A stretch of DNA of 64,000 nt, from the NCBI RefSeq assembly GCF_000381005.1, contig NZ_KB908386.1, positions 3,450 through 67,449 on the forward strand, written 5' to 3'. Of the stretch, positions 14,189-29,817 are shown piece after piece. A program made the position numbers and the translations under genes. Position 1 is the stretch's first letter. Every line of letters begins with the position of its first letter. The stretch comes from Selenomonas bovis DSM 23594 (lineage in GTDB: Bacteria; Bacillota; Negativicutes; Selenomonadales; Selenomonadaceae). Under the pieces are notes generated by a model that was not told the origin of the DNA, made no database searches, and saw nothing but the letters and a program-made list of their open reading frames with translations.

Positions 14189-15961
14189 TTACTGCAGCAA
14201 GCTCAGGACACTGCTACCGTTCTGGTTCGCCTGGGCGAGCATCGACTGCGCCGCCTGCAGGAGGATGCTGTGCTTCGTGTAGGCGGTCATCTCCTTCGCC
14301 ATATCCGCGTCGCGGATGGCCGACTCAGAGGCCTGCGTGTTCCGGCTCGACGTGATGAGATTGTCCGCCGTCATGCCGAGACGGCTCTCGATCGCGCCGA
14401 TGGTCGTGATCTGGTCGAGCGCCTTGCGCAGGGAGTTGTCGATGAGCGTGAGGGAGGTCTTCGCCTGATCGACGGTCTTGACGCTGAGCTTGCCACCCTC
14501 ATCGTCTGCAAGCCCCATCGCGCGTGCGTGGATGTCCGAGAGCGCCACGCCGATGTTCTGATTCGCGCGCGTGCCGAGCTGGAACATCAGGCTCGTGTGG
14601 CGGCTGAACGTCGGCCAATGCACGGTGAGACCGCCGTCGTACATCGTCGTGTCGCTGTCCGGAAAGTACCAGAACGCGGCCGAACCGCCCTCAGGCACGA
14701 TGTCCTCGCTCGTCTTCTGCTCGCGGCTGCCGCCCGCGTCGTAGCCGGTCGCCGCACCCGTATCGTCATTGTCGAGGTCGATGCCGCAGCACTCCTTGTA
14801 GAACGCGTCGGCATTCGCATACGCGGTCCGATCCGCGACGAAGGCATCCTGCAGCCCCTTGAGCGTCGCGCCCGGCACCGCCGCGCCGATCGCCGTCTCG
14901 AGGCTCTTGCCGCCGCCATTCATGAGCGCCGTCATGAAGCGCGCCATCGAGCCCTCGCCGCCCTTTTTCTCCACGTAGCGCAGGAACGCGAACCCGCCGG
15001 CATAGGGCTGCTGAGTATTCGTGCCGCTGCCGTTCGCGAAAAGTCCCTGATAGGCCGCCGCGTCCATGCTCCGCAGCGTCTGCGTGCGCGTATCGTCCGC
15101 GCCCTGCGTGAGCTCCGCCATGCCCTCGACGATATAGAGCGGCATGTCGGCGAAATCATCGATATTCGCCGACATCACGGCATGCGTGAGCTCATGCGCG
15201 AGCACGCGGTCGAGGTAGATGGCGCTCGCGCTCGACGACTTGCCGTTGACGTTCGTCGTGTCGAGCTTCGCCGTGCTGCTGTCATAGTAGTTCAGGTTCA
15301 CCGTCAGCGTGAGACCGGTCGTATGACTCCCGACATACGAGCTGCTCACGTACGCGAGCGCGTCCGCCTGCGCGCTGCCCGCCGCCTCATGCTTCAGGAT
15401 CACGTCCATCTCCTTCGGCTTCGTATTCGCCTCGTTGAACCGGATGCCGTACGACTGCTCGATGAGCGAGAGCGAGTTCGGGATCCACTCCGTGTGGAGC
15501 GCCTTGATGATGGTATCCTGCGCCGTATCCGCGCGATCCGCGCTACCGTCGAAGAGATAGCGCCCGTTGAACTGGATGCTCGCGTTCTCATCGACCTGAT
15601 CGATCTGCTGGTCGATCTCGCGCTGGATCGTTGCGCGGTCGGCGTCGCTGTTGTGGTCGTTTGCTGCATCGAGCGCCTTCTCCTTGATCGTGCGCAAGAC
15701 ATCGATGGTCGACTGCACCGCGCCCTCCGCTGTCCGCATGAGGCTGCTCGCGTTCTGCGCGTTCGCCTTCGCCTGATCGAGGCCGCGGATCTGCACGCGC
15801 ATGCGCTCGGAGATCGCGTACGCCGACGCGTCGTCACCGGCACCGCCGATTTTCCGGCCACTTGCGACTTTCTTCAGATCTTTCACCAGCTGCGACGAAT
15901 TTTTATTGAGCGTATGGAGCGTCTCTGCCGCCGCCATATTGTGCATGATGACCATTGCCAT
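14189..15961 (-). CDS. Flagellinolysin: flagellin with an inserted HExxH metalloprotease domain
   Basis: 590 aa. Residues 1-~140 are the flagellin D0/D1 N-terminus (MAMVIMHNMAAAETLHTLNK, ASGRKI, SLMRTAEGAVQST) and ~475-590 the C-terminal D1/D0 (ESRLGMTADNLITSSRNTQA, SMLAQANQNGSSVLSLLQ). The hypervariable middle is replaced by a peptidase domain with HELTH (256-260) and a downstream VEGMAE (279-283) that offers the third zinc-ligand glutamate, a gluzincin arrangement. Such proteins, described in Clostridium as flagellinolysin, polymerise into a proteolytic filament surface. A sigma-28-type promoter precedes it and a terminator follows. No other flagellin gene is in the window. Confidence 0.95.
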   Translation of the reverse strand: MAMVIMHNMAAAETLHTLNKNSSQLVKDLKKVASGRKIGGAGDDASAYAISERMRVQIRGLDQAKANAQNASSLMRTAEGAVQSTIDVLRTIKEKALDAANDHNSDADRATIQREIDQQIDQVDENASIQFNGRYLFDGSADRADTAQDTIIKALHTEWIPNSLSLIEQSYGIRFNEANTKPKEMDVILKHEAAGSAQADALAYVSSSYVGSHTTGLTLTVNLNYYDSSTAKLDTTNVNGKSSSASAIYLDRVLAHELTHAVMSANIDDFADMPLYIVEGMAELTQGADDTRTQTLRSMDAAAYQGLFANGSGTNTQQPYAGGFAFLRYVEKKGGEGSMARFMTALMNGGGKSLETAIGAAVPGATLKGLQDAFVADRTAYANADAFYKECCGIDLDNDDTGAATGYDAGGSREQKTSEDIVPEGGSAAFWYFPDSDTTMYDGGLTVHWPTFSRHTSLMFQLGTRANQNIGVALSDIHARAMGLADDEGGKLSVKTVDQAKTSLTLIDNSLRKALDQITTIGAIESRLGMTADNLITSSRNTQASESAIRDADMAKEMTAYTKHSILLQAAQSMLAQANQNGSSVLSLLQ

Positions 15962-16521: not shown

Positions 16522-16669
16522 ATGAGGTGCTCCGGATTTACGCGGATGCGCTGTATCTCCCTAGGAGACAAACCGGAGGCGTAGCGGGCTACGCTGAGGA
16601 TTTGTCGACGACGGGAGGACAACGCAGACGCGTGAAGACGGCGTGCCGAATGAATCAGTGGTCCCTTAA
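16503..16669 (+). mobile_element. MITE-like element, 167 bp, with terminal inverted repeats
   Basis: Starts TTAAGGAACCGCTGATTAAA and ends GAATGAATCAGTGG(T)CCCTTAA, so the ends are inverted repeats. Related copies: 48503-48674 (nearly full), 44762-~44900 (left part), 44172-44212 and 63815-63848 (right ends). No transposase is encoded; a non-autonomous element is inferred. Its right end abuts the broken methyltransferase gene. Confidence 0.7.
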
Positions 16670-16671
16670 AG

Positions 16672-17283
16672 CAAATAAGCGATTATTTTCGCTTTCCCTT
16701 CGAGACCAGCGGGTATATGAGAGAGGGTATTTGGGGGACGACAAAAATCGTACCAAACTATCACGGGAAGCATACAGTCCTGAGGAGTATTATGGACAGA
16801 AACGTCCCGGATGAGTTTTTCCTTGGCAACGATTTATCAAAATGGGATTATCAAAAGGGACCGAAGCATATTCTACGCAAATCGGCAAATGGTCATCAAT
16901 ATATGTATTCGGAAAGGCCAATCGCTTTTCCAGACCCCATCGACAGGCCAGCACGCACCATGCTGACGAGCGAGGCGACAACAAATCGCAGCACCCATGT
17001 CATCTGCGATATCGACCGCAATGAGTTGCGCTTGCTGACGCCAGAGGAAGCGGAAGCTATACAGGGATTCAAAAAGGGCTGGACAAATACTGGAATGAGC
17101 AAACGGTTTCGGTATTTTTGCATGGGAAATGCGCTTGTGACAGGATGCGTTACTGTTATGGGAGTGACGTTAAACCGCATTCTGGCAGGAAAAGCGATTA
17201 AAAAATTCCTATGTGGAGACCTTCGCGTTGCTAGACGATTTTCGCAAGAAAAACGGGATTATGCAAACAACACTTGCCACTAG
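16672..17283 (+). pseudogene. C-terminal fragment of a DNA (cytosine-5) methyltransferase
   Basis: Reading through 16672-17283 gives QISDYFRFPFETSGYM..., collinear with the last ~190 residues of the intact methyltransferase at 28045-29244 (AISDAFGFAFDTAGYM...). Target-recognition tail, motif IX (RPARTMLTSEATTNRSTH) and motif X (MGNALVTG) remain; motifs I-VIII with the catalytic PCQ are absent. Homology begins within 3 bases of the MITE end, and an in-frame TGA lies in the MITE. The gene was therefore cut by deletion or insertion and is not functional. It points to a cytosine methyltransferase once linked to the island. Confidence 0.85.
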
Positions 17284-17597: not shown

Positions 17598-20192
17598 TTA
17601 TGCATCCATCCCGAAGATTTCTGCAAAAATCATGGCGAGATCTTCGTCATCCGTCGTGGTTTGCTCCATTCTCTCGTCGTTAATGGCATCAAGCATAAGC
17701 CTGTTCTTCTCTTCGAGACGCTGATAAACTGTTTGGTCAAGAGACACCATGTTTCCTTGGAAATCAAACGCCTCCATCATGTAATAGTATTGTGTATATT
17801 GGCCGGCAGGAAGACCCAAACGATGAATACGGTCTTTTGATTGCAGCATATGAACGAGGTTGTAGCTATATTCCAGATATACCGCATCATGGCATACATC
17901 ATGGAGCGACACTGATTCCGCAAGCGTGTGAGGATTGGTAACTAAAACATCCAACCTGCTACCATGAAAGTCATTCAGAACATTTTCACGCGTATCCATC
18001 TCGGTACATCCATCTATGGATTCAGCGCGGATTCCACGATGCAGCAATTCTTCTTTGACCTCTCTGATTGAGCGGCGAAAGATACACCAGCAAATCGCTT
18101 TCTTTCCATCAGCCACAAGCCTCACCAATTTGCGAAGGCAGGCATCCATTTTAGTGGATATTTTAGGGCATTTACTGACAAGTTCGCTAACTTCTGTTGA
18201 ATAATCCTTGAAATCAATATCCCCGATGTCTTCTGCTTCAAAATCAAGGATTTCCATCAAATCTGATGCGTCGATACTGTCCAGAAGCATTCTGGGATTC
18301 GATTCCAGTTGCAGCACACGAATAAACCAAAGAAGCCTGTTGCTTCGGTGATAGGCTTCTTTTAGTATATAGAATAGCCTATTCTCTATATTGCTCGCTT
18401 GCACATTGCATTCTATATCCGGATTTGCTGGAGGAACTTCGAGCTGCTCTTTCGTTGTCCTGCAGTAGAAAGGTTTCAGTTTGCGATTGATATCCTCTTT
18501 TTCTGTTTCTGTCGGATTTTTCAACTCACTTTGGCGATACCCAAAGAATGCTCGATATTCATTTGGAAACATCAGGTGAAGCATATTATAGATGTCCACA
18601 TACCCGTTAGGGATAGGCGTTCCCGTCATTACCGTGACATAATGAGCAACTTGCGCTATATATAACGCGGATTCGGCTCGTTTTCCATTGATTCCTTTGA
18701 TTTTGTGGACTTCATCGAAAACCAGCATGGTGTCTTGCCTGGATACCAAATCTCGTAAATCTTGTTCCCAGTTTGCCAGGCTTTCATAATTGAACAGGAA
18801 AAGATTGTATTCTTCATAATGGTGACGAAGAGAAAGTTGCTTTTGTTCCCTATCCTCCCAAGCGTTATCATGCAAGTTGAACACTCTTAATTGCTGCTTT
18901 TTGCCAAAGCAAGCACGAAATTCGTGTTGCCAGGATCCAAATGCATTTTTCGGGCAAACGACGAGAATGCGTTTCATGCCAACTTGCTCTTGCAAAAAAG
19001 CGAACATACCAAGCACCGATGATGTCTTGCCAGAGCCGGGGACTGAAAAATTCCCGCTCTTTATCATCATTGTCATGAAAAATGCATCCCACATCTGGCG
19101 GCTTTCTAACCGCCTTTCTAAAGAGGAACTGACAATTTCCCTGAACTGTTGGAATTTGGGCAGCATTCTCTTGTCGTGCCGTTTGATGTCTATCCCCAAC
19201 GTAGAGCGTTTTTGAATATGAATCTCCTGGCTTTCGATGAATTCACGGAGCCGATTGGTCATGGCATAACGATAGCCGTAATCTAAACGTGGAATTTTCA
19301 TATTCAATATGCTGTCAATCTTTTTGTAGTCAATATAGGTAAGGCCGTCTTTGAAATAAATCATCCCAGGCTTTGTGCTTTTTATATACTTGCGCAGCCT
19401 AGTCCTGACAAAGCCCCGGTCGAGCAGATACTTTCCGCCATCGCCAAGATTCATATGCAAAATCAATCGTCCATTATCAAAATCAAGAATGCAAGCATTC
19501 TCCAGCAAAAGGATGTCTTCTTTTATCATTATTCCCTTGTCGTGCCTCATTATTTCTTGCAATACCACGTCATCAATCTCTCGTACGACAACGTCACCAT
19601 AACCGCCCTTCCAATATGCATCAAAAATGCGTTGGCTCTTATTGATGCCGCGCGTATAAAATCCATTCTTGTCCAACCAACTGCATACTACGCTAAACGA
19701 TTCATGATTTTGTCGCATTGCCGCAACGGTTTCATTATTAGATCCGGTAAACTTTATGCGGTTCCCTGCAGCATCAGACAGTATGCCGAATTTGTCGTGG
19801 AATATCCCCTCCCTGGTAAAGGCAACTTTTATATCAAGGCATCCCATTGCAATCAGCCGCGCCAGATTCGACAAGCCTTTTTCAAGGAATATGTTGCCAT
19901 CTGTCTGCAGAGATTCCAGCAATTCCTGTCTGACACGGCTCCTCACGGCATAGCCAACCCGAATTTCTTCGAGTTCTTCCTCGGGTATCTCCTTTGAAAC
20001 TACCAATCGATATTTATGTCCCATGCCTGCAAAATATTCCACGCCTGTTGCATAGATTGCCAAGGCTCTCGCAGAAAAATAAGCACTGGCACGGTCATAG
20101 CTTACCGCCTCCATTAACACTGGATTGAAAAACGATTCAACGACATCGTCTTCAGTGGTATAAAACGAGTCAAACTGGAGGTCAGTGAACAT
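17598..20192 (-). CDS. PLD-family nuclease fused to SNF2-like helicase
   Basis: 864 aa. N-terminal phospholipase-D-type domain with one HKD motif: H132-x-K134, D140, then G150-S-N-N (FHDKFGILSD, FTGSNNE), as in BfiI or Nuc-type DNA nucleases. After a ~230-residue linker comes an SF2 (SNF2/DEAD-like) motor: Walker A GSGKT (386-390), motif II DEVH (493-496), motif III TGTP (523-526), motif VI QSKDRIHRLG (784-793). The pairing suggests ATP-driven DNA translocation coupled to cleavage, as in restriction-like systems such as NgoAVII, CglI and DISARM, where these activities are on separate proteins. It overlaps the ParB-like gene by 11 bp and is the last gene of the operon. Confidence 0.88.
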   Translation of the reverse strand: MFTDLQFDSFYTTEDDVVESFFNPVLMEAVSYDRASAYFSARALAIYATGVEYFAGMGHKYRLVVSKEIPEEELEEIRVGYAVRSRVRQELLESLQTDGNIFLEKGLSNLARLIAMGCLDIKVAFTREGIFHDKFGILSDAAGNRIKFTGSNNETVAAMRQNHESFSVVCSWLDKNGFYTRGINKSQRIFDAYWKGGYGDVVVREIDDVVLQEIMRHDKGIMIKEDILLLENACILDFDNGRLILHMNLGDGGKYLLDRGFVRTRLRKYIKSTKPGMIYFKDGLTYIDYKKIDSILNMKIPRLDYGYRYAMTNRLREFIESQEIHIQKRSTLGIDIKRHDKRMLPKFQQFREIVSSSLERRLESRQMWDAFFMTMMIKSGNFSVPGSGKTSSVLGMFAFLQEQVGMKRILVVCPKNAFGSWQHEFRACFGKKQQLRVFNLHDNAWEDREQKQLSLRHHYEEYNLFLFNYESLANWEQDLRDLVSRQDTMLVFDEVHKIKGINGKRAESALYIAQVAHYVTVMTGTPIPNGYVDIYNMLHLMFPNEYRAFFGYRQSELKNPTETEKEDINRKLKPFYCRTTKEQLEVPPANPDIECNVQASNIENRLFYILKEAYHRSNRLLWFIRVLQLESNPRMLLDSIDASDLMEILDFEAEDIGDIDFKDYSTEVSELVSKCPKISTKMDACLRKLVRLVADGKKAICWCIFRRSIREVKEELLHRGIRAESIDGCTEMDTRENVLNDFHGSRLDVLVTNPHTLAESVSLHDVCHDAVYLEYSYNLVHMLQSKDRIHRLGLPAGQYTQYYYMMEAFDFQGNMVSLDQTVYQRLEEKNRLMLDAINDERMEQTTTDDEDLAMIFAEIFGMDA

Positions 20193-21411
20193 CTGCTTTC
20201 CCCTTTAAATCGTTAAGGAGTTCTATCAGCTCATCTGCCTTTCCGCGTATGTCCTGAAGTTGCGTTTCGGACAATTTGGAAAATATATTCGTGTCCAGCT
20301 CTGCAATCGCATCAATCGCTTTGTCCAAGACATGAGCGGCCTGTTCTCGGTTCGCTGTTGCACGAATACGTTCGTCGTATTTGTCCGTTGTCTGCAGCGC
20401 CTCTCTGGCAAGAGCGGATTCGCGTTTCATGCTTTCCAGTTTTTCAAAGCGAACTTTCTCTTGCGCATCTTTGCTGTCACTGATTTGATCTGCGACTGTT
20501 TCCGCGATATCCATCTGCTTTTCGACGAATTCTCTTCGCTGACGTTTATCTTTCAATATTTTTTTGATTTTGCGCATATATCTCGTCATGTCAGCTTTGG
20601 GGGCCAAGGCTAAATTCGAGAATATGATTTGTTTCACGTCTTCCTGCTCATCCTCGTCTTTTTCACTCTTGATGATTGGATATATTTCTCGCAAAGGACC
20701 ATCCAGCTTCTCTTTTCTGGCAATATAGAACTGAAATGGGTGCTGGATGAAATCAAGATACTCCACCATTAATTGCGCTATTTCAAGGTCTTTGTTGACC
20801 TCCTTGAGCGGCTGGTTGATGCTTTTTGCATATTCGTCCGCCGTCAGCAGTTTGTTCCTTACGACATCATTATACAAGCCCGCCAGACGATCGATTGGAT
20901 CGTAATCGACACGTGCCTCTTCGCCATGCTGAACCATCAGCTCAAGCATCTTGATATGCTTGGCATCACGTTCCATGTTCTCGGTCAGGATTACAGTCTC
21001 GAAAAAACCAAATTTTGCAGGATTCTTACGGTTAAGTCTGCGCAAGCAGGTGAACCTGCGGTTCCCATCCACGACGCGTCCATCGCTTAAGGTAATGCCC
21101 GCTTCACGTTGATCAACCAATTTGATGTTGTTTTCTGTCTGTTCAATTTTTTCTGGATTGCTGGCAACGATGAATTTCTCGATTTGATCGTTATACGCTT
21201 CAATATCATCCCGGCTGATATCCTGTCCGTTGTGTTCAGAGCGATATTCTTCCAGCCATGTTGCAATACGGTCGTTCTGGTCATTATAAAAGAGTGCGTC
21301 CAGGCGCACACGATATACTGGATAGGGTTTCGTTTTCCCAGCAATCGTCAGCTTGCGGGTCATTTCCGTTCTCTCAACCAATCCGCTAACTTCGTCTGTC
21401 AATAGGTTCAT
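20182..21411 (-). CDS. ParB/sulfiredoxin-fold-like protein
   Basis: 409 aa. ITLSDGRVVDGNRRFTCLRR (DGNRRF at 115-120) matches the nucleotide-binding ParB_N motif, but it lies about 60 residues later than in chromosome-partition ParB; the ~90 residues before it are an extra N-terminal segment. The rest is charged and helical, with a likely coiled coil at ~285-400 (RMRKIKKILKDKR-type heptads). There is no ParA or parS context. The start has AGGAGG 8 bases upstream; it begins 3 bases after the 1107-aa gene and overlaps the PLD-SNF2 gene. Probably the NTP-dependent DNA-clamp or regulatory partner of those two; inference. Confidence 0.7.
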   Translation of the reverse strand: MNLLTDEVSGLVERTEMTRKLTIAGKTKPYPVYRVRLDALFYNDQNDRIATWLEEYRSEHNGQDISRDDIEAYNDQIEKFIVASNPEKIEQTENNIKLVDQREAGITLSDGRVVDGNRRFTCLRRLNRKNPAKFGFFETVILTENMERDAKHIKMLELMVQHGEEARVDYDPIDRLAGLYNDVVRNKLLTADEYAKSINQPLKEVNKDLEIAQLMVEYLDFIQHPFQFYIARKEKLDGPLREIYPIIKSEKDEDEQEDVKQIIFSNLALAPKADMTRYMRKIKKILKDKRQRREFVEKQMDIAETVADQISDSKDAQEKVRFEKLESMKRESALAREALQTTDKYDERIRATANREQAAHVLDKAIDAIAELDTNIFSKLSETQLQDIRGKADELIELLNDLKGKADVH

Positions 21412-21414
21412 CTG

Positions 21415-24400
21415 TCAAACCTCCTGAAAATACGCATCGTAATCACGATACAGTTTATGCATAATGCTATTATAGTACAAATCGTTCTCTCTTTCCGCAG
21501 CGATTTCTATCACCACATGGTTATCCTTATATTCCATACCATATTCTTCACGGAGCATATCCATAAAATCATCAATATCAATCGATACCTCATGCTCCAT
21601 GACATCCGCAATAAATCCTTCCATCGATATTGTGTCTGCGCCACTGTAAAACAGTCTTGTGTTTCCGTGCCTTAATGATTGGAATGCTCCGCTGAATCTC
21701 AAAATCGACATCAGAAAATAATCATCGAATCCCAAGCAATCAACAGACGTCTTTCCGCCTTTAGCACGAAAATAAGAAATTGTAAAATAGGATTCTTCCA
21801 TAGCGGCTTTGACCTCATAGGCAACTGACACAAGTCTTTCTTTCGTCCATCCTTCCTTCTCCAAACGACTAAGCATAATAAAATGGTTTGGTGCAAATTC
21901 TATGGCCTGTAACTTCTGTTGCATAGGCCAAATCCACCATGTCCTGATGTTCGTGTCCGCTTCAGTAAACTCAATTATTCCGCGTTTGTTGGCAGTATAG
22001 ATGAACGCTTCTCTGAAGCTTGAAAAATCTTTTTTATAAATCGTTTGGTCATTTGCTACATACCCCAGTTTATCCAAATTATAGCGGTTTAAAATATCCG
22101 GGGAATCAGGGCACACAGCATTAAATATCTCTTTTGCCATCAAAAGGCTATAATACGGCTGTGTCAATGCCATGGATAAATTTTTTAGGTCTTCTTCAGA
22201 TGCTTTCTGAACGGCAATAGAATAAGTATCACCTTGTAAATATTTTTTTGCAAAACAAGCATAATTGGCGAAAAAAGTTGACTTCGGAATTCCATATTGC
22301 TCTCCATAGTACGAAGCAAATTCTTCTTTTGTCGCTTCACCAAGTTCCCGCAAGGCTCCAAGCACTTGCCGCTCCCGGTTCGCATTCCCAAAAGCCAGAA
22401 TTGGCATCCTGCATACGGACATACGCATTTCCTTTGCTGCGGCATGGCTTACTATTTTTTTCAGAAGATTGTGCAGCTCATAGGCATCCTTCAGGCCGTA
22501 TTCCTCCGCCACATCGGGATACCTGTCAAGGAAATACTGCGTCCCAATCTCGACATCTCTGCCAGCCAGCTCCTCAAAATGAAAATCTCGCAGCAGCACC
22601 TTGGCATCGACGTCTCGCGTGTCGTAAAAACGAAAGATTTTTCCCTGCTTCCACAACGTGCAGGGGCTTCTGCTCAGTGCCACTTCCCCATAACGCGCCG
22701 TCAGGGTAACCCTCTCGTCCTTGTCACAATCTAGCATGAAAAGGAATACGGCATACTTTTTGTAAAAATCTTCAATCCCAATATCCTCCTCACAATAGTG
22801 CGACAGGAAATAGTTCAGGAAACTTTGCCTGTTTATCGGCAAGTATGTGCCATCCACATTGACGCAATCGGCATATGCGGCTTTTTTCAGGAGAATGGCA
22901 ATTTTTTTGCGGTAGCCTAGCGGTATATTCTCGTCCCGCAAGGAATCGGCAGGACTCTTTTTGCGGCTTCCTCCGTACCTATGCGCCAGATAATAGTATC
23001 CTGTTGCGTCGACGCCAAAGGCATTTCGCATCTCATCAGGAGAAAACGAATACTCGTAAAAGACCTCGCAGAACCTGTCCTCATAGAGCGCATGACCCTT
23101 CCTGCGGATTGTCCGGATTGCCTTCGCCTCTATTTGCCTGACCCTTTCCCTCGTCACCGCCAATTCGCGCCCGACCTCTTCCAGCGTGGCATTGCCTGAC
23201 CTTCTCGCGAGAACTAGCCGCTCCCTCTCCGTGAGATCCTTCGTATGGGCGATGTACTCGCGAAACGTTTCCCGCATCTTGACATAGCCCATGTTGTCCT
23301 TCTCAACGAAGCCTTCCTCTGTCAGGTCGCGCAGGGTGGCACCTAGAGGGAGATACCCTGCAAGCCCCCATGGGAGCTGTGCACCGATTTCCTGCTCAAT
23401 CTCGTCATAGGGGCAGGGCCAGTCCCGGTCTGTCACCGCGCATATCGCCTGCCGGACGGCCTCGGCCATGCACTCTGAGTCGCCGATGGCACGTAGGAAC
23501 GGCTCGTTCGCCGTGATTTTCTCTGCCGTGTCCCCGAAGGGGGCCAGCTGTTCCTTGCCTTGCCGCAGCACCTCCAGCAAGGCAACGCAAAGTTCGTTCC
23601 TCGCGCCGCCATGCTTTTCCTGGAAGGACAGGACATCGGCAATCAACTGGCTATAAAGCCCCGTCCTTCCCGATTGTCCTTCCACATCGATTACAGCGCG
23701 GCTGCCGTATCTTTCAAGCAGCTCTCCCTGTAGCCGTATGATTTCCCGCACAGATTTTTCCCCTAGGTTTCGTACGCTTCGCCAGTCGCTTTCCCTCACA
23801 CCGAGGAAGGACGCCAAGTCCACAATCCGCTTTTTCATCTGTTGGCTGCGCACGATGCCGTTGAAGGAGCGTACGGACAGGTTCGCTTGGAGAAGGCTCA
23901 GTAGCTCGTCTCGGCGAATATCAGGGAATCGCGTCTCGCTGGCGGCATCCATGCCGGATTGATAACTTTTCCCTTCACGCCAAGCGGCAAGCATGGCAGT
24001 GGCGTTCTGGCGCAGACGCTCTTGAAACGCCATGATTTCCTTGACCGTCTTTCGCCCCAGATTGCGTACCCGATACCAGTCTTCCTCTTCCATCGCGAGG
24101 AAAGTCTTCACGTCTGTGACCTGCCGGCTTGCCTTGATGCCGTGCACAGCGCGCACAGAAAGATTCTCTTTCAGAAAAGCGAAGAATTCCTCCCGTCGCG
24201 GGCTGTCATCTGGAAGGGGGCGAGAAACACCTTCTTGCGTCGCTTTCCCTTTTGAAAAGTCCATACTGACTATGCTAGGTTCAGCCAATGCCCTAACCAG
24301 CACAGATGGTTCGCGAGATTTGTCCTCTTCCTCGGCCCGTTTTTCTGCAGATTCATCATCGATGTCTTTTATCAGCGAGGCAACCTCTGCGAGAACTTTC

Positions 24401-24738
24401 TTGTACTCCGTCGGGTTATTCTTATATAATTTCACGGTATCGATAAACAACCGCGTCGGTTTCGTATAAAGCGATTTCCCGCTCCAAGCAGATTCCATAC
24501 TTATCATTTGGGAAGCAATGCCACTTCGAGATCGATATGAATCATCAATCGTTAGGCCAGAGGAGACAGCCATCTGTCTCAATTTTCCCGAACAATCTGC
24601 AATGGCCTCTGAACGCGTCATTTCTCCATTGACGTATTGCAAGTAGGAGTTTAAGAGAGCAACTGCCTCATACTTGGTGAAAGGAACGTTTTTGGATTTT
24701 GCCACGCCTCGTATCACTTCCTCTGTATCATACGGCAT
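21415..24738 (-). CDS. 1107-aa protein with two alpha-CTD-like modules and a sigma-70 region-4 module
   Basis: Residues ~15-125 form an N-terminal helical module (FTKYEAVALLNSYLQYVNGE ... MESAWSGK). Two repeats follow, ~186-240 (NLSVRAVHGI...VRNLGRKTVKEI) and ~282-340 (NLSVRSFNGI...VRNLGEKSVREI), that closely resemble the helix-hairpin-helix C-terminal domain of RNA polymerase alpha. Residues ~500-545 (LTERERLVL, TLEEVGRELAVTRERVRQIE) match sigma-70 region 4. The remaining ~560 residues are unrecognised. No sigma region 2 is present, so this is not a normal sigma factor. Likely a DNA-binding sensor or transcription-apparatus mimic heading a three-gene operon. The ATG lacks a clear ribosome binding site. 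Confidence 0.8.
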   Translation of the reverse strand: MPYDTEEVIRGVAKSKNVPFTKYEAVALLNSYLQYVNGEMTRSEAIADCSGKLRQMAVSSGLTIDDSYRSRSGIASQMISMESAWSGKSLYTKPTRLFIDTVKLYKNNPTEYKKVLAEVASLIKDIDDESAEKRAEEEDKSREPSVLVRALAEPSIVSMDFSKGKATQEGVSRPLPDDSPRREEFFAFLKENLSVRAVHGIKASRQVTDVKTFLAMEEEDWYRVRNLGRKTVKEIMAFQERLRQNATAMLAAWREGKSYQSGMDAASETRFPDIRRDELLSLLQANLSVRSFNGIVRSQQMKKRIVDLASFLGVRESDWRSVRNLGEKSVREIIRLQGELLERYGSRAVIDVEGQSGRTGLYSQLIADVLSFQEKHGGARNELCVALLEVLRQGKEQLAPFGDTAEKITANEPFLRAIGDSECMAEAVRQAICAVTDRDWPCPYDEIEQEIGAQLPWGLAGYLPLGATLRDLTEEGFVEKDNMGYVKMRETFREYIAHTKDLTERERLVLARRSGNATLEEVGRELAVTRERVRQIEAKAIRTIRRKGHALYEDRFCEVFYEYSFSPDEMRNAFGVDATGYYYLAHRYGGSRKKSPADSLRDENIPLGYRKKIAILLKKAAYADCVNVDGTYLPINRQSFLNYFLSHYCEEDIGIEDFYKKYAVFLFMLDCDKDERVTLTARYGEVALSRSPCTLWKQGKIFRFYDTRDVDAKVLLRDFHFEELAGRDVEIGTQYFLDRYPDVAEEYGLKDAYELHNLLKKIVSHAAAKEMRMSVCRMPILAFGNANRERQVLGALRELGEATKEEFASYYGEQYGIPKSTFFANYACFAKKYLQGDTYSIAVQKASEEDLKNLSMALTQPYYSLLMAKEIFNAVCPDSPDILNRYNLDKLGYVANDQTIYKKDFSSFREAFIYTANKRGIIEFTEADTNIRTWWIWPMQQKLQAIEFAPNHFIMLSRLEKEGWTKERLVSVAYEVKAAMEESYFTISYFRAKGGKTSVDCLGFDDYFLMSILRFSGAFQSLRHGNTRLFYSGADTISMEGFIADVMEHEVSIDIDDFMDMLREEYGMEYKDNHVVIEIAAERENDLYYNSIMHKLYRDYDAYFQEV

Positions 24739-25144: not shown

Positions 25145-25597
25145 TTGCGCACAAAAAACAAGGCCAACTTTCGCCTGCTGGAGTCCTTTATCGACGGCTA
25201 CCAAGAGAAACATGGGATTTCTCCCACGACGAAGGACATTTCCCGAGGGACAGGGCTTTCCACCGGCACGATTTCCCGCTATCCGCAGTATATGCGGGAA
25301 CAGGGGATGATTGACTACCAAGGGCACAAGGGTTTTGTCACCCGCAAGATGCGGAAGATGCGGGACGCGACGGAGCTGGTGCCGCGCCTCGGGAGCATCG
25401 CCTGCGGCATCCCGAAGTTCGCCGAGGGGAATATCGAGGAGTATGTGCGGCTGCCGATAGCGCTTTTTGGGAGCGGCGATTTTTTCCTGTCCGGCAAACA
25501 GGGAACCATCAGGGGAATTTTCCATTCCCAGCAGATGGTTTTCTGTTTGCCGGATTTTTTGTGCAAAAAATTCTGTCGACCGTTAAGGAACCACTGA
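25145..25597 (+). pseudogene. Truncated LexA-like (S24) repressor
   Basis: TTG start with AAGGAAGGAGG 8 bases upstream. Residues 1-~70 are a LexA-type winged HTH (GISPTTKDISRGTGLSTGTI). Residues ~78-116 are the start of the S24 autopeptidase domain, with the cleavage site as SIACGIP and then LPIALFGSGDFFL. The sequence then departs from the family just before the catalytic Ser (GDSM), at a 65-bp hairpin, so the Ser-Lys dyad is missing. What remains could still bind DNA but cannot self-cleave. It diverges from the island operon and may have been its repressor. Confidence 0.75.
25490..25562. terminator. 65-bp hairpin with T-run inside the LexA-like ORF
   Basis: Three stacked stems: TCCGGCAAACAG/CTGTTTGCCGGA, AACCATC/GATGGTT and GGGAAT/ATTCCC around TTTCC, then TTTTTT. 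It behaves as an intrinsic terminator on the plus strand and marks the point where the LexA homology is lost. Confidence 0.7.
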
Positions 25598-26369: not shown

Positions 26370-27827
26370 ATGCGCGAAGATTTATATGACAAGACAAGTC
26401 CGACGGATATAGAGGCATACGGCAAGAAGATGATTGGAAAAACTATGCGGCAGATATATAAGTCACGCATTGACAAGGAACTAATCCACGACAAGCAAGA
26501 GGGCTATCTATCCTCCCATGAGGACAAGAACTACAAGGGCGGCATCGGCAACCTGATAGAGGAGTGCTGGTTCGGATATGCGGCCAATTCGGATGCTCAG
26601 GCAGATTTCTCCGATGCAGGCGTCGAACTGAAGGTCACGCCGTATATGAAGACCAGCCATGGATTCCGTGCCAAAGAGCGCCTCGTACTGACGATGATCA
26701 ACTATATGGAAATCGTCAAAGAACGCGATTTCGAACACAGCCACCTGTGGGAGAAAGCGCAGCTCATCCTGCTGGTATGGTACCTGCATGCAAAGGGTAT
26801 CAGCGATATGGACAGCACGGTGGATTTCGTACAGCTCTTCACACCTCCACCAGAGGATCTCGCAATCATACGCAGCGATTATCAGAAAATCATCACAAAA
26901 ATCAAGGCCGGCAAAGCCCACGAACTCTCAGAAGGTGACACTTTGTATCTGGGTGCCTGCACGAAAAGCTCTAATTCCAAGGTGAGGCGTCAGCAGCCGT
27001 TCAGCGATACAGAGGCAAAGCCCCGTGCGTTCTCCTTCAAAAACAGCTATATGACCTATATACTCCTGCACTATATCATGCCCGGGAAACAGACATACGA
27101 ACCGATTGTCAAGGAAGGTCAGCACATCGCCAACTTCGAAAGATATGTCACTGATAGGATTGCCAGGTATCGGGGGGCCAGCATTTCTAATCTAGCTGCC
27201 CATTTCCAAATTGCCTCACACGCCAAGAATATTCCGGCGATGCTGGCTTTCCGTATCCTCGGTGTGACAGGGAACAACTGCGAGGAATTCGAAAAAGCAG
27301 GCATCGCCGTCAAGACCATCCGCATCCAAAGGAATGGCCGTATCAGAGAGAACATGTCATTCCCGTCAATAAACTATCGAGAACTTGCCAGGGAGAATTG
27401 GGAGGATTGCACATTCGGAAACTATCTGCGTAATACGAGATTCTTCTTCGTAATATACCACGAGGATTCGGATGGGGAATATCGTCTGCAAGGAGGGCTG
27501 TTCTGGAATATGCCAGCCAAAGACCTGGAAGGCGATGTGCGCGCGGTGTGGCAGGAAACCCACGACATCATCAGTAGGGGGCAACTGTCACTGACGTGCA
27601 GCAGGAACGGCACGATCATCAACAACCTGCCGAAAAAAGCAAACCATCCGATATCTCACGTCCGGCCCCATGCCAGGACCCGCGATGATACCTCCCCTTT
27701 GCCCGAAGGAACGCATATCCATATAGGAAAAGGCGTCGCCTGGAGCAATCCGGATGCTTATACAAAACATTGCTTCTGGCTCAACAACAACTACATCCTG
27801 AGACAAATCAAGCAGGCGGGAAACTGA
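26370..27827 (+). CDS. Sau3AI-family type II restriction endonuclease (GATC-type)
   Basis: 485 aa, close to Sau3AI length. The N-terminal MutH-like catalytic domain has IGNLIEECWFG, then DAGVELKVTPY, which supplies the D...ExK metal-binding residues near 82-93. The C-terminal half corresponds to the second, allosteric MutH-like domain of Sau3AI. Such enzymes cut unmethylated GATC sequences in incoming DNA. The m5C methyltransferase gene follows convergently and vsr beyond it, making a complete restriction-modification unit. GATC specificity is inferred from the family. Confidence 0.88.
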   Translation: MREDLYDKTSPTDIEAYGKKMIGKTMRQIYKSRIDKELIHDKQEGYLSSHEDKNYKGGIGNLIEECWFGYAANSDAQADFSDAGVELKVTPYMKTSHGFRAKERLVLTMINYMEIVKERDFEHSHLWEKAQLILLVWYLHAKGISDMDSTVDFVQLFTPPPEDLAIIRSDYQKIITKIKAGKAHELSEGDTLYLGACTKSSNSKVRRQQPFSDTEAKPRAFSFKNSYMTYILLHYIMPGKQTYEPIVKEGQHIANFERYVTDRIARYRGASISNLAAHFQIASHAKNIPAMLAFRILGVTGNNCEEFEKAGIAVKTIRIQRNGRIRENMSFPSINYRELARENWEDCTFGNYLRNTRFFFVIYHEDSDGEYRLQGGLFWNMPAKDLEGDVRAVWQETHDIISRGQLSLTCSRNGTIINNLPKKANHPISHVRPHARTRDDTSPLPEGTHIHIGKGVAWSNPDAYTKHCFWLNNNYILRQIKQAGN

Positions 27828-28044: not shown

Positions 28045-29244
28045 TCATTCTTGTTCTACAATCTCGGCAAGCAGCCTGCCCATCCGGGTGATGCAGCCGA
28101 CGACCAGAGCATTTCCCATACAGAAATATTGGAAACGATCCGTCATCCCTGTATCAGTCCAATGCTCAGGGAATCCTTGTATCTTGTTCGTTTCATTCGG
28201 AGTAAGCAGACGATACCGCCCTGTATCGAGATCGCGGACCACATGTGTACTGCGGTTCGTCGTTCCCTCGCTGGTGAGCATGGTCCGGGCCGGCCGATCC
28301 ACAGGGTCCGGATAAGCAATCGGCCCCTCCGAGAACGTATATTTATGACCGTTCCTCGCTGTTCTCTCGATATGCTTGGCACCTTTGAGGTATTTGAATT
28401 TCTCCAAGGATGTATCGTCAAGATAATACTTTTCATCGACACCGTGGTCCATGATATCTCTCAGCAACACATGCGGCCCGTGGTAATCCGGCTCCGCCTT
28501 CGCTGTGAACAGCATGCCGTCTGTCATATAACCAGCCGTATCGAACGCGAAGCCGAACGCATCAGATATTGCCAACAAGTCTTGCGTGCCAAGTTCGCCC
28601 TGATGCAACGCCCCGCACGGCGCAATCGGAAACACCTGCGCGAAGAAGCCATCCTGATGGATGACCCTGTCTGCGGAAGCACCATGCATGTACCGCCCAT
28701 AGACCGTATCATTCCGATAGGCAAAGATGAACGTGCGGCGGCGGCGCTGCACGAACCCATAGTCCGCGGCGTTGACAACGCGCCATTCGACACTGTATCC
28801 TAATGCCCAGAATGATGCCAGGATGATACCGAAATCGCGCCCCCGTTGCTTGCCCGGCGACTTGAGAAGCCTGTCGACATTCTCCAGCAGTACGAACGGC
28901 GGATGTTTCGCAATCAATACACCCCGTATCTGCCACCACAGCACGCCCTTCTTGCCCTCGATTCCCTTCGCTCCGGTACGGGCCACCGAGTAGTCCTGGC
29001 AAGGAAATCCGCCAACCAGCAAGGTATGATCCGGGATGCTTGCCTTGTCGACGGTGCCTATATCCTCATTGACATAGATATCCTTCTTGCCGAAATGAGC
29101 GCAGTAGCAGTCGAATGCGTCCTGGCGCCTCCTGCTCGGTTCCCACTGGTTCGCCCATACAGTATCCCAGTTTGCATCGGCGGCCTCGAGCCCGACGCGG
29201 AAACCTCCGACTCCCGCAAATAGCTCGCATACCGTCTTATCCAT
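28045..29244 (-). CDS. DNA (cytosine-5-)-methyltransferase
   Basis: 399 aa with all core m5C motifs: I FAGVGGFRVGLE, IV GGFPCQDYSVA (catalytic Cys), VI ENVDRLL, VIII QRRRRTF, IX RPARTMLTSEGTTNRSTH and X MGNALVVG. The target-recognition region is ~195-310. It methylates cytosine at the position 5, protecting the host from the convergent Sau3AI-like enzyme, probably at GATC. The promoter contains GATC in its -35 element. It is homologous to the broken copy at 16672-17283. Confidence 0.95.
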   Translation of the reverse strand: MDKTVCELFAGVGGFRVGLEAADANWDTVWANQWEPSRRRQDAFDCYCAHFGKKDIYVNEDIGTVDKASIPDHTLLVGGFPCQDYSVARTGAKGIEGKKGVLWWQIRGVLIAKHPPFVLLENVDRLLKSPGKQRGRDFGIILASFWALGYSVEWRVVNAADYGFVQRRRRTFIFAYRNDTVYGRYMHGASADRVIHQDGFFAQVFPIAPCGALHQGELGTQDLLAISDAFGFAFDTAGYMTDGMLFTAKAEPDYHGPHVLLRDIMDHGVDEKYYLDDTSLEKFKYLKGAKHIERTARNGHKYTFSEGPIAYPDPVDRPARTMLTSEGTTNRSTHVVRDLDTGRYRLLTPNETNKIQGFPEHWTDTGMTDRFQYFCMGNALVVGCITRMGRLLAEIVEQE

Positions 29245-29312: not shown

Positions 29313-29406
29313 GGTCGAATTCCCAAAAGATCTGACCGCAATCAAATGTCCCCGGATAATCAGACCTGCGGTATCTGATACATCTTCCTGAAAGGAGGTG
29401 ACGCCT

Positions 29407-29817
29407 TTGGACGTGCTCACGAAAGAACAGCGCCGGAAAGCCATGTCCCGCAACCGTGCCAAAGACACACGACCGGAAGTGCGTCTTCGCAAGGCGCTCT
29501 ACCACCAACGGCTCCGGTACCGCAAGAATTACCGCAAACTCCCCGGAACGCCGGATATCGCCCTGACCAGGCAGAAGATAGCAATCTTCGTCGACGGTGA
29601 CTTCTGGCATGCCAGAGGGCACGAGACGCACCCGGGAGAGCAGGTCACTACCAACAAAGAATACTGGGTCAAGCACCTATCCCGCAATGTCGAGCGCGAC
29701 CGCGAAGTGACCGACACCCTGACCGAACAAGGCTGGCTCGTGCTCCGATTCTGGGAGTCCGACATCAAGCGCAATCTCGAGGCCTGTGTGAATACCATCT
29801 TGGCCTATGCGCGCTGA
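29407..29817 (+). CDS. vsr: Very short patch repair endonuclease Vsr
   Basis: 136 aa from the TTG at 29407, which has AAAGGAGG at proper spacing; the in-frame GTG at 29398 would overlap that site. Vsr motifs: MSRNRAKDTRPEVRLRKALY, LPGTPDIAL (active-site Asp), FVDGDFWHARG and GWLVLRFWESD. It nicks beside T:G mismatches left by deamination of 5-methylcytosine, correcting mutations caused by the adjacent methyltransferase, from which it diverges. Confidence 0.95.
   Translation: MDVLTKEQRRKAMSRNRAKDTRPEVRLRKALYHQRLRYRKNYRKLPGTPDIALTRQKIAIFVDGDFWHARGHETHPGEQVTTNKEYWVKHLSRNVERDREVTDTLTEQGWLVLRFWESDIKRNLEACVNTILAYAR

Follow-up and report, generated by a model that had tools for sequence, protein, structure and literature searches.

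What brings a protein built from transcription-initiation modules, a ParB-fold protein, and a nuclease-like translocase together in one operon? The question is raised by three genes of Selenomonas bovis DSM 23594, here called A, B, and C, which lie on contig NZ_KB908386.1 within the stretch of 64,000 nucleotides that was analyzed (the window). The same set, with cutting parts that can be exchanged, is found in many bacteria and suggests an unnamed system of defense against invading DNA. On balance, we favor the reading that A-B-C is one form of a modular anti-invader system, probably one directed against phages or plasmids. An earlier note on this DNA had proposed a new anti-phage or DNA-restriction system. 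The set matches no named system in PADLOC-DB 2023, and its context supports a role in defense or restriction; an anti-phage activity would follow only by inference, and the note missed the link to Sau3AI, the replacement of C by a HEPN domain, and the mosaic evolution of A.

Linkage, putative effectors, and the tie to Sau3AI restriction

The three genes follow each other closely: 3 bp separate the stop of A from the start of B, and B and C share 11 bp, a spacing that the earlier note had claimed and with which both coordinates and sequence agree. Given this spacing, one transcript for A, B, and C is likely. The claim of a single promoter was not confirmed: the only sigma-70-like site found between positions 24600 and 25250 is oriented away from the operon.

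A scan of 84,980 species genomes with a profile of B detected 162 relatives, the best 80 of which were examined and correspond to 79 loci. We call a locus informative if at least 1.5 kb of contig is available on the expected side of A, or if A is seen; three of the 79 loci (L044, L060, and L084) are uninformative for A. A lies beside B in 71 of the 76 informative loci (48/51 with a short B, 23/25 with a long B). The five loci without A are L080, L089, L091, L092, and L094, and the contigs of L080 and L092 end at or just past B. Among the 50 informative loci with a short B, 49 have C next to B or fused to it; the exception is L105, where A follows B. None of the 25 loci with a long B contains C; in 23 of these 25 the long B carries an N-terminal HEPN_Swt1 domain. 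Neighboring genes of the set mostly overlap or lie a few bases apart, and a B-C fusion protein is present in L060. A protein of about 170 amino acids from one further family occurs in 17 loci, and the two members that were checked are HIRAN proteins. Judged from organism names, the set is found in Bacillota, Actinomycetota, Spirochaetota, and Melainabacteria. The co-occurrence of homologues that the earlier note had proposed to look for is thus near universal for A-B and B-C adjacency in the sampled loci, and the contrary case of single, unlinked homologues is not what these counts describe.

The set is rare, and its linkage is strong, with exceptions. Among 398 genomes drawn evenly from the phylum, four have a full-length A and nine have B. 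The A profile matches 397 of the 398 genomes at an expectation value (E) of 1e-6; from their alpha-CTD-length alignments (alpha-CTD, C-terminal domain of the RNA polymerase alpha subunit) we read the matches beyond the top rows as RpoA, and only the four full-length A proteins are counted. A adjoins B in two genomes, one has an orphan A, and in one A is followed to the end of its contig by a frame that we read by eye as a transposase, with B opening another contig. The remaining B without a full-length A are diverged forms. In viral sequences, a scan with a single B sequence found no relative, and a scan with the B profile found five diverged relatives.

A near-identical A-B-C locus is shared by L088, L095, L096, L097, L099, and L101, with 84-99% DNA identity in the compared pairs. 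The hosts are an Arcanobacterium, two Bifidobacterium, two Collinsella, and a Paraeggerthella, a distribution that indicates transfer among Actinomycetota. A T5orf172/helicase gene lies upstream in this group, and a GmrSD gene lies downstream in L095, L096, L097, and L101.

The cutting parts differ between loci. The C of the window has Pfam matches to SNF2-rel_dom (E 1.1e-20) and Helicase_C, with PLDc_2 below the Pfam cut-off. Its Walker A, DExH, and motif VI elements class it as a SNF2 motor and its HKD motif places it in the PLD nuclease family, for which nuclease activity is predicted; the nuclease-translocase of the earlier note thus corresponds to a SNF2 motor with a PbeA-like, HKD-bearing PLD part. 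Among the sampled loci, 24 C-type proteins are at least 840 amino acids long. PLD-SNF2 proteins make up 22 of these, and all 22 contain both the HKD motif and Walker A; the other two are the B-C fusion of L060 and another helicase (L077, 2046-5057). Short C proteins contain Walker A in 25/25 cases and the HKD motif in 0/25.

Within flanks of up to 10 kb, a C5 methylase occurs in 13 of the 22 PLD loci, compared to about 0.27 loci expected from whole-genome PF00145 counts with adjoining pieces merged. Near the loci whose C has no PLD domain the count is 1/25 (Fisher p 5e-5 against the PLD loci, in a test that treats as independent loci that are not and that includes several short contigs). The methylase count includes the truncated PLD locus L028 in the PLD set and leaves out L084 and L060; the count of gaps and sets treats L028 as having a short C. 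In L104, a single protein of 1311 amino acids comprises the Sau3AI endonuclease, sigma region 4, and the core of A, and five proteins of 517-519 amino acids (L085, L087, L090, L103, and L019) join the C-terminal domain of Sau3AI to the C-terminal part of A. The restriction link is therefore physical. Sau3AI was counted in a non-iterated search; an iterated Sau3AI profile drifted into A. As judged from neighborhoods and fusions, the PLD forms are tied to Sau3AI restriction. In general, it is known that restriction-modification operons can include SNF2 or HKD proteins (PMC2292703, PMC3710099, PMC6098607); the accessible parts of these sources do not describe the A-B-C set.

These counts invite the alternative that A-B-C is solely an accessory of Sau3AI-type restriction: it would help the restriction enzyme to locate GATC DNA that is unmodified or to finish it off, or would process the cut ends, with no defense role of its own. 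The fusions and the methylases of the PLD loci agree with this explanation, as does the window, which holds a full Sau3AI set. However, a C5 methylase is near only one of the loci without PLD, neither a methylase nor Sau3AI is seen in the 22 long-B loci with A in the count of gaps and sets, and 9 of the 22 PLD loci lack a methylase in the available sequence, some contigs (L029, L044) being short. We consider a purely accessory role unlikely.

Protein folds and the variability of A

B has no Pfam family over the cut-off, no match in PADLOC-DB 2023, and only weak matches in PHROGs. The ParB fold that the earlier note had assigned to it comes from the predicted structure, whose predicted local distance difference test (pLDDT) score is 91. 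Residues 32-164 superpose on the ParB N-domain 7o0n_A (90 residues, 1.3 Å, Z 11.1), and residues 31-295 on KorB 8qa9_A (198 residues, 4.1 Å, Z 10.7); the match to 5k5d_C covers 211 residues at 3.7 Å. In 43 aligned sequences (alignment A3: 39 of the 48 short B proteins, the window B, and those of L014, L015, and L016), G116, R118, and R119 are invariant and N117 is kept in at least 90%; alignment A5 uses 25 of 25 rows. By the N-domain fold, the G-x-R-R motif, and the DNA-binding region of the model, B is classed as a candidate ParB-type clamp protein. The accessible part of a study of ParB-fold proteins (PMC12704722) states that nucleotide binding needs the P-motif arginine, that a ParB-fold/Sigma70 fusion protein bound ATP, and that nucleotide use is not reliably predictable from sequence or AlphaFold3; the terms 'HEPN' and 'SNF2' are absent from the text of that paper.

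A matches RNA_pol_A_CTD in two stretches (E 1.4e-12) and Sigma70_r4 (E 1.1e-10) in Pfam, as expected from its earlier description as an alpha-CTD/sigma-4 protein. Its model has a mean pLDDT of 80, and most of residues 411-1107 exceed 80. Residues 489-590 of the predicted model overlay the sigma4/beta-flap-tip chimeras 6ido_B (Z 8.6, 72 residues, 2.0 Å) and 8d5v_D (Z 9.1, 86 residues, 3.1 Å), a likeness that is suggestive only. Behind them stands a row of helix-strand units, which on inspection of the model we read as winged helices; most of its 10-residue blocks are above pLDDT 80, and its C-terminal part is the one common to the Sau3AI fusion proteins. Foldseek returned weak matches of this array to SelB winged-helix domains and others, and no strong whole-length match for the full-length model.

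Among 51 aligned A proteins (50 of 57 plus that of the window, with near-duplicates and some partial or redundant copies omitted, as also for B), 47 match Sigma70_r4 and 42 match RNA_pol_A_CTD at E 0.01, and the mean column identity is 23%. Against this low identity stand the residues of the recognition helix: R530 is kept in 50/51, E531 in 44/51, R534 in 47/51, and Q535 in 45/51. We take these four positions to correspond to R584, E585, R588, and Q589 of Escherichia coli sigma-70, which read the -35 element. The A of L096 (437 amino acids) has no Pfam match, so the alpha-CTD and sigma-4 parts are not universal among A-type proteins. The HARE-HTH Pfam domain has no match at E 0.01 in the 51 proteins; A has unassigned winged-helix-like units in its model.

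A diverges faster than its partners. Conservation is lower for A than for B in 99.8%, and lower than for C in 100%, of the 595 pairs formed from 35 loci; the mean identities are 26% for A, 45% for B, and 47% for C. The ratio of nonsynonymous to synonymous substitution rates (dN/dS) in the computable pairs, several of which are saturated, is 0.05-0.31 for A, 0.01-0.12 for B, and 0.04-0.15 for C. A exceeds both in most of these pairs; in L031/L033 (dS 3.5) it is not above C. The pair L077/L079, where the adjacent A proteins are 93% identical, is excluded from the range. Closer inspection of single pairs reveals mosaics. In L098/L102, where B and C are 96% identical, A is 76-100% identical per 50-residue window after residue 450 and 24-56% before it. 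In L030/L032 (B 99%, C 96%), A drops to 38-64% over residues 450-750, with 78-100% before and 91-98% after this segment. L098/L100 combine a C at 99% and a B at 95% with an A at 53%. No block swap in A is seen in further close pairs, for example L068/L069 and L097/L101. Fast, mosaic evolution of this kind is the pattern expected for a specificity or sensor subunit, which A may be.

Two alternatives start from the polymerase-like parts of A. Phages attack the alpha-CTD and sigma-4 parts of the polymerase, as exemplified by AsiA and Alt of T4. A might thus be a guard or decoy in abortive infection: when a phage binds or modifies this polymerase mimic, B and C, or HEPN-B, would be freed to kill the cell or destroy DNA. 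The kept recognition-helix residues, the overlay of the predicted model on sigma4/beta-flap chimeras, the fast mosaic A, and the HEPN effectors are consistent with this explanation. However, DNA binding explains the same sigma-4 residues, and in some A-type proteins the alpha-CTD/sigma part is replaced by the C-terminal domain of Sau3AI, presumably a DNA-binding domain, which favors DNA recognition; we regard the decoy as quite unlikely. The second alternative is silencing, in which A and the ParB-like clamp B would sit on the promoters of incoming DNA, much as KorA and KorB do, and C would remove polymerase or reset the complex. The resemblance of B to KorB fits this, as do the promoter-reading residues of A and the 25 short C without PLD compared to 22 long ones with it. 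The PLD or HEPN domains of many forms, however, imply cleavage, and silencing appears very unlikely to us.

Proposed mechanism, exceptions, and named systems

If A-B-C is a modular anti-invader system, then A would be its exchangeable recognition subunit, whose alpha-CTD, sigma-4, and winged-helix-like array may bind a particular DNA or nucleoprotein target. B would act as a nucleotide-dependent clamp or switch of the ParB type that is loaded at A, and C as a SNF2 motor carrying a PLD nuclease. The three proteins may form a complex. In other lineages, B itself would carry the effector as a fused HEPN RNase. A complex of the PLD form may act together with a restriction-modification pair of the Sau3AI type, with methylation marking self DNA. 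A more specific version, which we offer tentatively and consider doubtful, is that A, with its two alpha-CTDs and a sigma-4 with a flap-like helix, is a promoter-recognition mimic of RNA polymerase serving as an exchangeable immune sensor: it would read promoter-like DNA of the invader or bait phage proteins directed against these polymerase parts. The ParB-type clamp would then be licensed to trigger one of several interchangeable effectors, namely PLD-SNF2, SNF2 alone, or HEPN with HIRAN.

If the general reading is correct, the set represents an unnamed, widely spread defense family in which the clamp is conserved, the nucleases are interchangeable, and recognition falls to a mosaic protein made from transcription-initiation parts, and a ParB-type switch would be used in immunity. 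Its connection with Sau3AI would illustrate the way in which an ATP-driven arm can be gained by a simple type II system. A promoter-mimic sensor with a clamp switch, if real, would constitute a new class of immune sensor, and whether the sigma-4/alpha-CTD mimic reads promoters or catches phage proteins that hijack transcription would become directly testable.

Several observations weigh against the anti-invader reading. An N6_Mtase (type I) gene within 10 kb of the no-PLD and HEPN forms is found in 0/48 cases, where a rough expectation is about half a match and many contigs are short. With this and the single C5 methylase near 25 no-PLD loci, no defense-island signal was detected for these forms. 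The enrichment near defense genes that the earlier note had asked for was checked with two methylase families: C5 methylases are enriched at PLD loci, and N6_Mtase shows no enrichment near the other forms. Nucleotide use by B is put in doubt by the 17 of 28 ParB-fold proteins that bound no nucleotide in the accessible part of PMC12704722. The linkage has its exceptions too: one orphan A (G026), and diverged B-C pairs without A that lie beside type III genes (L023, L025, and L026) or in loci with a C5 methylase. B-C can therefore occur without A as a partner. Two plasmids of Exiguobacterium have B-C behind two ParA genes, again without A, an arrangement that fits DNA maintenance as well.

The last case leads to the alternative that the set serves mobile elements as a module for maintenance or partition. 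The ParB fold of B and the occurrence of B at a coverage of at least 80% in 47 of 72,556 plasmid records also speak for it. In the flanks of ten other plasmid loci that were viewed, however, no ParA is annotated except in L023, about 8 kb from B, the annotation being incomplete. The loci are also found on genome contigs (chromosome and plasmid unsorted), and HEPN and PLD domains and Sau3AI fusions do not suit partition; we find this explanation hardly credible. A 1120-amino-acid gene beside C in Exiguobacterium was considered as an A and rejected as an Ig-repeat protein. A-type matches occur in 49 plasmid records, 48 of them from Enterococcus, including L008, L009, and other Enterococcus faecalis records. 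The Enterococcus plasmid loci that were viewed have a C without PLD, and the B of L009 (strain 133-1) is divided between two frames.

The diverged pairs have surroundings of their own. In L023, L025, and L026, type III mod and res are followed directly by a ParB-like gene and a SNF2 gene, apparently in one operon. A diverged B-C pair, flanked by genes for small proteins, occurs in L010 (Streptococcus phage Javan191), L014, L015, L016, L108, and L109, and a C5 methylase is present in 4/6 of these loci (L010, L014, L015, and L109). From its gene content, this pair looks like an ATP-dependent, type II-like restriction-modification system without a name match. In L014 the neighbors include a NOV_C protein and another with weak, sub-cut-off matches to DpnII and BanI; the small proteins of the diverged B-C loci have no convincing similarity to the A core. 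In L013 and L094 (Butyrivibrio hungatei), the neighbors of HEPN-B are two C5 methylases and a DUF4420 (MzaD-like) gene, and A is absent. In L012 (4982-8134; length and coordinates as in L044, Desulfosporosinus acididurans) a gene for an SMC-like ATPase, LmuB- and mad3-like in PADLOC, lies just downstream of B-C.

Does the anti-invader system already have a name? In PADLOC-DB 2023, B matches nothing, A matches only MzaA through its sigma region 4, and C shares domains with PbeA, Zorya, DISARM, and Dpd; in agreement with the earlier statement that the set resembles no named system, these matches are to single domains of A and C. One of the likenesses is to PbeABCD, a phosphorothioation-linked system of archaea made up of PbeA, PbeB, PbeC, and PbeD: only the PLD part of C matches, its counterpart being PbeA, and A and B match no Pbe family. 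The sigma region 4 of A matches the end of MzaA at about 30 bits, and one diverged HEPN-B relative adjoins a DUF4420/MzaD-like gene; however, no other MZA component is present among the nine window proteins scanned. The motors ZorD, DrmD, BrxHI/II, and DpdE of Zorya, DISARM, BREX, and Dpd all match C, and none matches A or B. DISARM is marked by the DrmA helicase and DrmB (DUF1998), BREX by PglZ and BrxC-type proteins, and Zorya by the ZorA/ZorB membrane motor. A and B match neither DrmA nor DrmB, and C matches DrmD (E 8.6e-10) and, with its PLD part, weakly DrmC, among 25 of the 32 families that C matches. A and B have no PglZ or BrxC-type match either, and C resembles the BrxHI/II motor (E 4.1e-7). 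The similarity to Zorya is limited to the ZorD motor.

The Sau3AI-family endonuclease and the C5 methylase of the island, which also holds a Vsr gene, form a neighboring restriction-modification pair and are not A-B-C itself. A-B is also found without Sau3AI, and Sau3AI pairs are not known to depend on an ATPase, a clamp, or an A-type protein. With ParB, KorB, and Noc, the predicted B shares the N-terminal clamp fold and DNA-binding region; it differs in that most plasmid loci viewed have no annotated ParA and the partners of B are A and C. Aravind and Iyer reportedly described, in 2012, 'alpha plus sigma' HARE-HTH bacterial proteins, which combine features of RNA polymerase alpha and sigma; A likewise combines such features, and the A-B-C operon is not known to be described there. 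We found no description of the A-B-C set in the open-access literature. Judged against PADLOC-DB 2023 and this literature, the set appears new as a gene system, with parts that are known folds. Because its homologues are linked and the PADLOC matches are to single domains only, an unnamed system with a role in defense or restriction is well supported by context.

The surrounding island

The operon has a G+C content of 0.43-0.52, compared to 0.61-0.69 for most of the window beyond the island, in line with the AT-richer island described earlier. The island contains the Sau3AI set and two degraded genes (Table 1), both of which the earlier note had recognized. The broken methyltransferase is represented by residues 223-396 only and is 58% identical to the intact methylase in tblastn. 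The LexA-like gene looks truncated because its alignment to a relative of 266 amino acids is limited to residues 65-177.

Table 1. Features of the operon and its island, in coordinates of the window.
Feature	Position	Strand	Basis and reading
Gene A, 1107 aa (amino acids)	21415-24738	minus	open frame; variable, putative sensor or specificity subunit; contains alpha-CTD repeats, sigma region 4, winged-helix-like array
First alpha-CTD, A residues 181-242	24013-24198	minus	Pfam; structural match 7vpd_S, Z 7.2, 57 aa, 2.1 Å
Second alpha-CTD, A residues 271-342	23713-23928	minus	Pfam; 1z3e_B, Z 7.1, 64 aa, 2.3 Å
Sigma region 4 and helices, A residues 489-590	22969-23274	minus	overlay on sigma4/beta-flap-tip chimeras
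Repeated helix-strand units, A residues 600-1107	21418-22941	minus	predicted model; read as tandem winged-helix array
Gene B, 409 aa	20182-21411	minus	open frame; ParB-fold protein by predicted model
ParB N-terminal (NTPase/clamp) domain, B residues 30-165	20917-21324	minus	structural match 7o0n_A, conservation
Region aligned with ParB/KorB/Noc DNA-binding part, B residues 171-289	20545-20901	minus	8qa9_A, 5k5d_C
Gene C, 864 aa	17598-20192	minus	open frame; PLD nuclease-like domain fused to SNF2 motor
PbeA-like PLD domain, C residues 2-219	19536-20189	minus	HKD motif (H132, K134); PADLOC PbeA, E 7.7e-54
SNF2/helicase core, C residues 385-800	17793-19040	minus	Walker A 386-390, DEVH, motif VI
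Sau3AI-family restriction endonuclease	26370-27827	plus	NCBIfam restrict_Sau3AI, E 1.3e-170; same island, probable partner
C5-cytosine methyltransferase	28045-29244	minus	profile matches; probable cognate of Sau3AI enzyme
Vsr-type endonuclease	29398-29817	plus	Pfam; same island
LexA-like regulator, truncated	25145-25597	plus	between A and Sau3AI gene
Remnant of second C5 methylase	16666-17184	plus	tblastn

A flagellin gene of 590 amino acids (14189-15961 of the window) has a large insertion between its N- and C-terminal flagellin domains, and the middle of this protein contains a HELTH stretch, which we take to resemble a zinc-protease motif.

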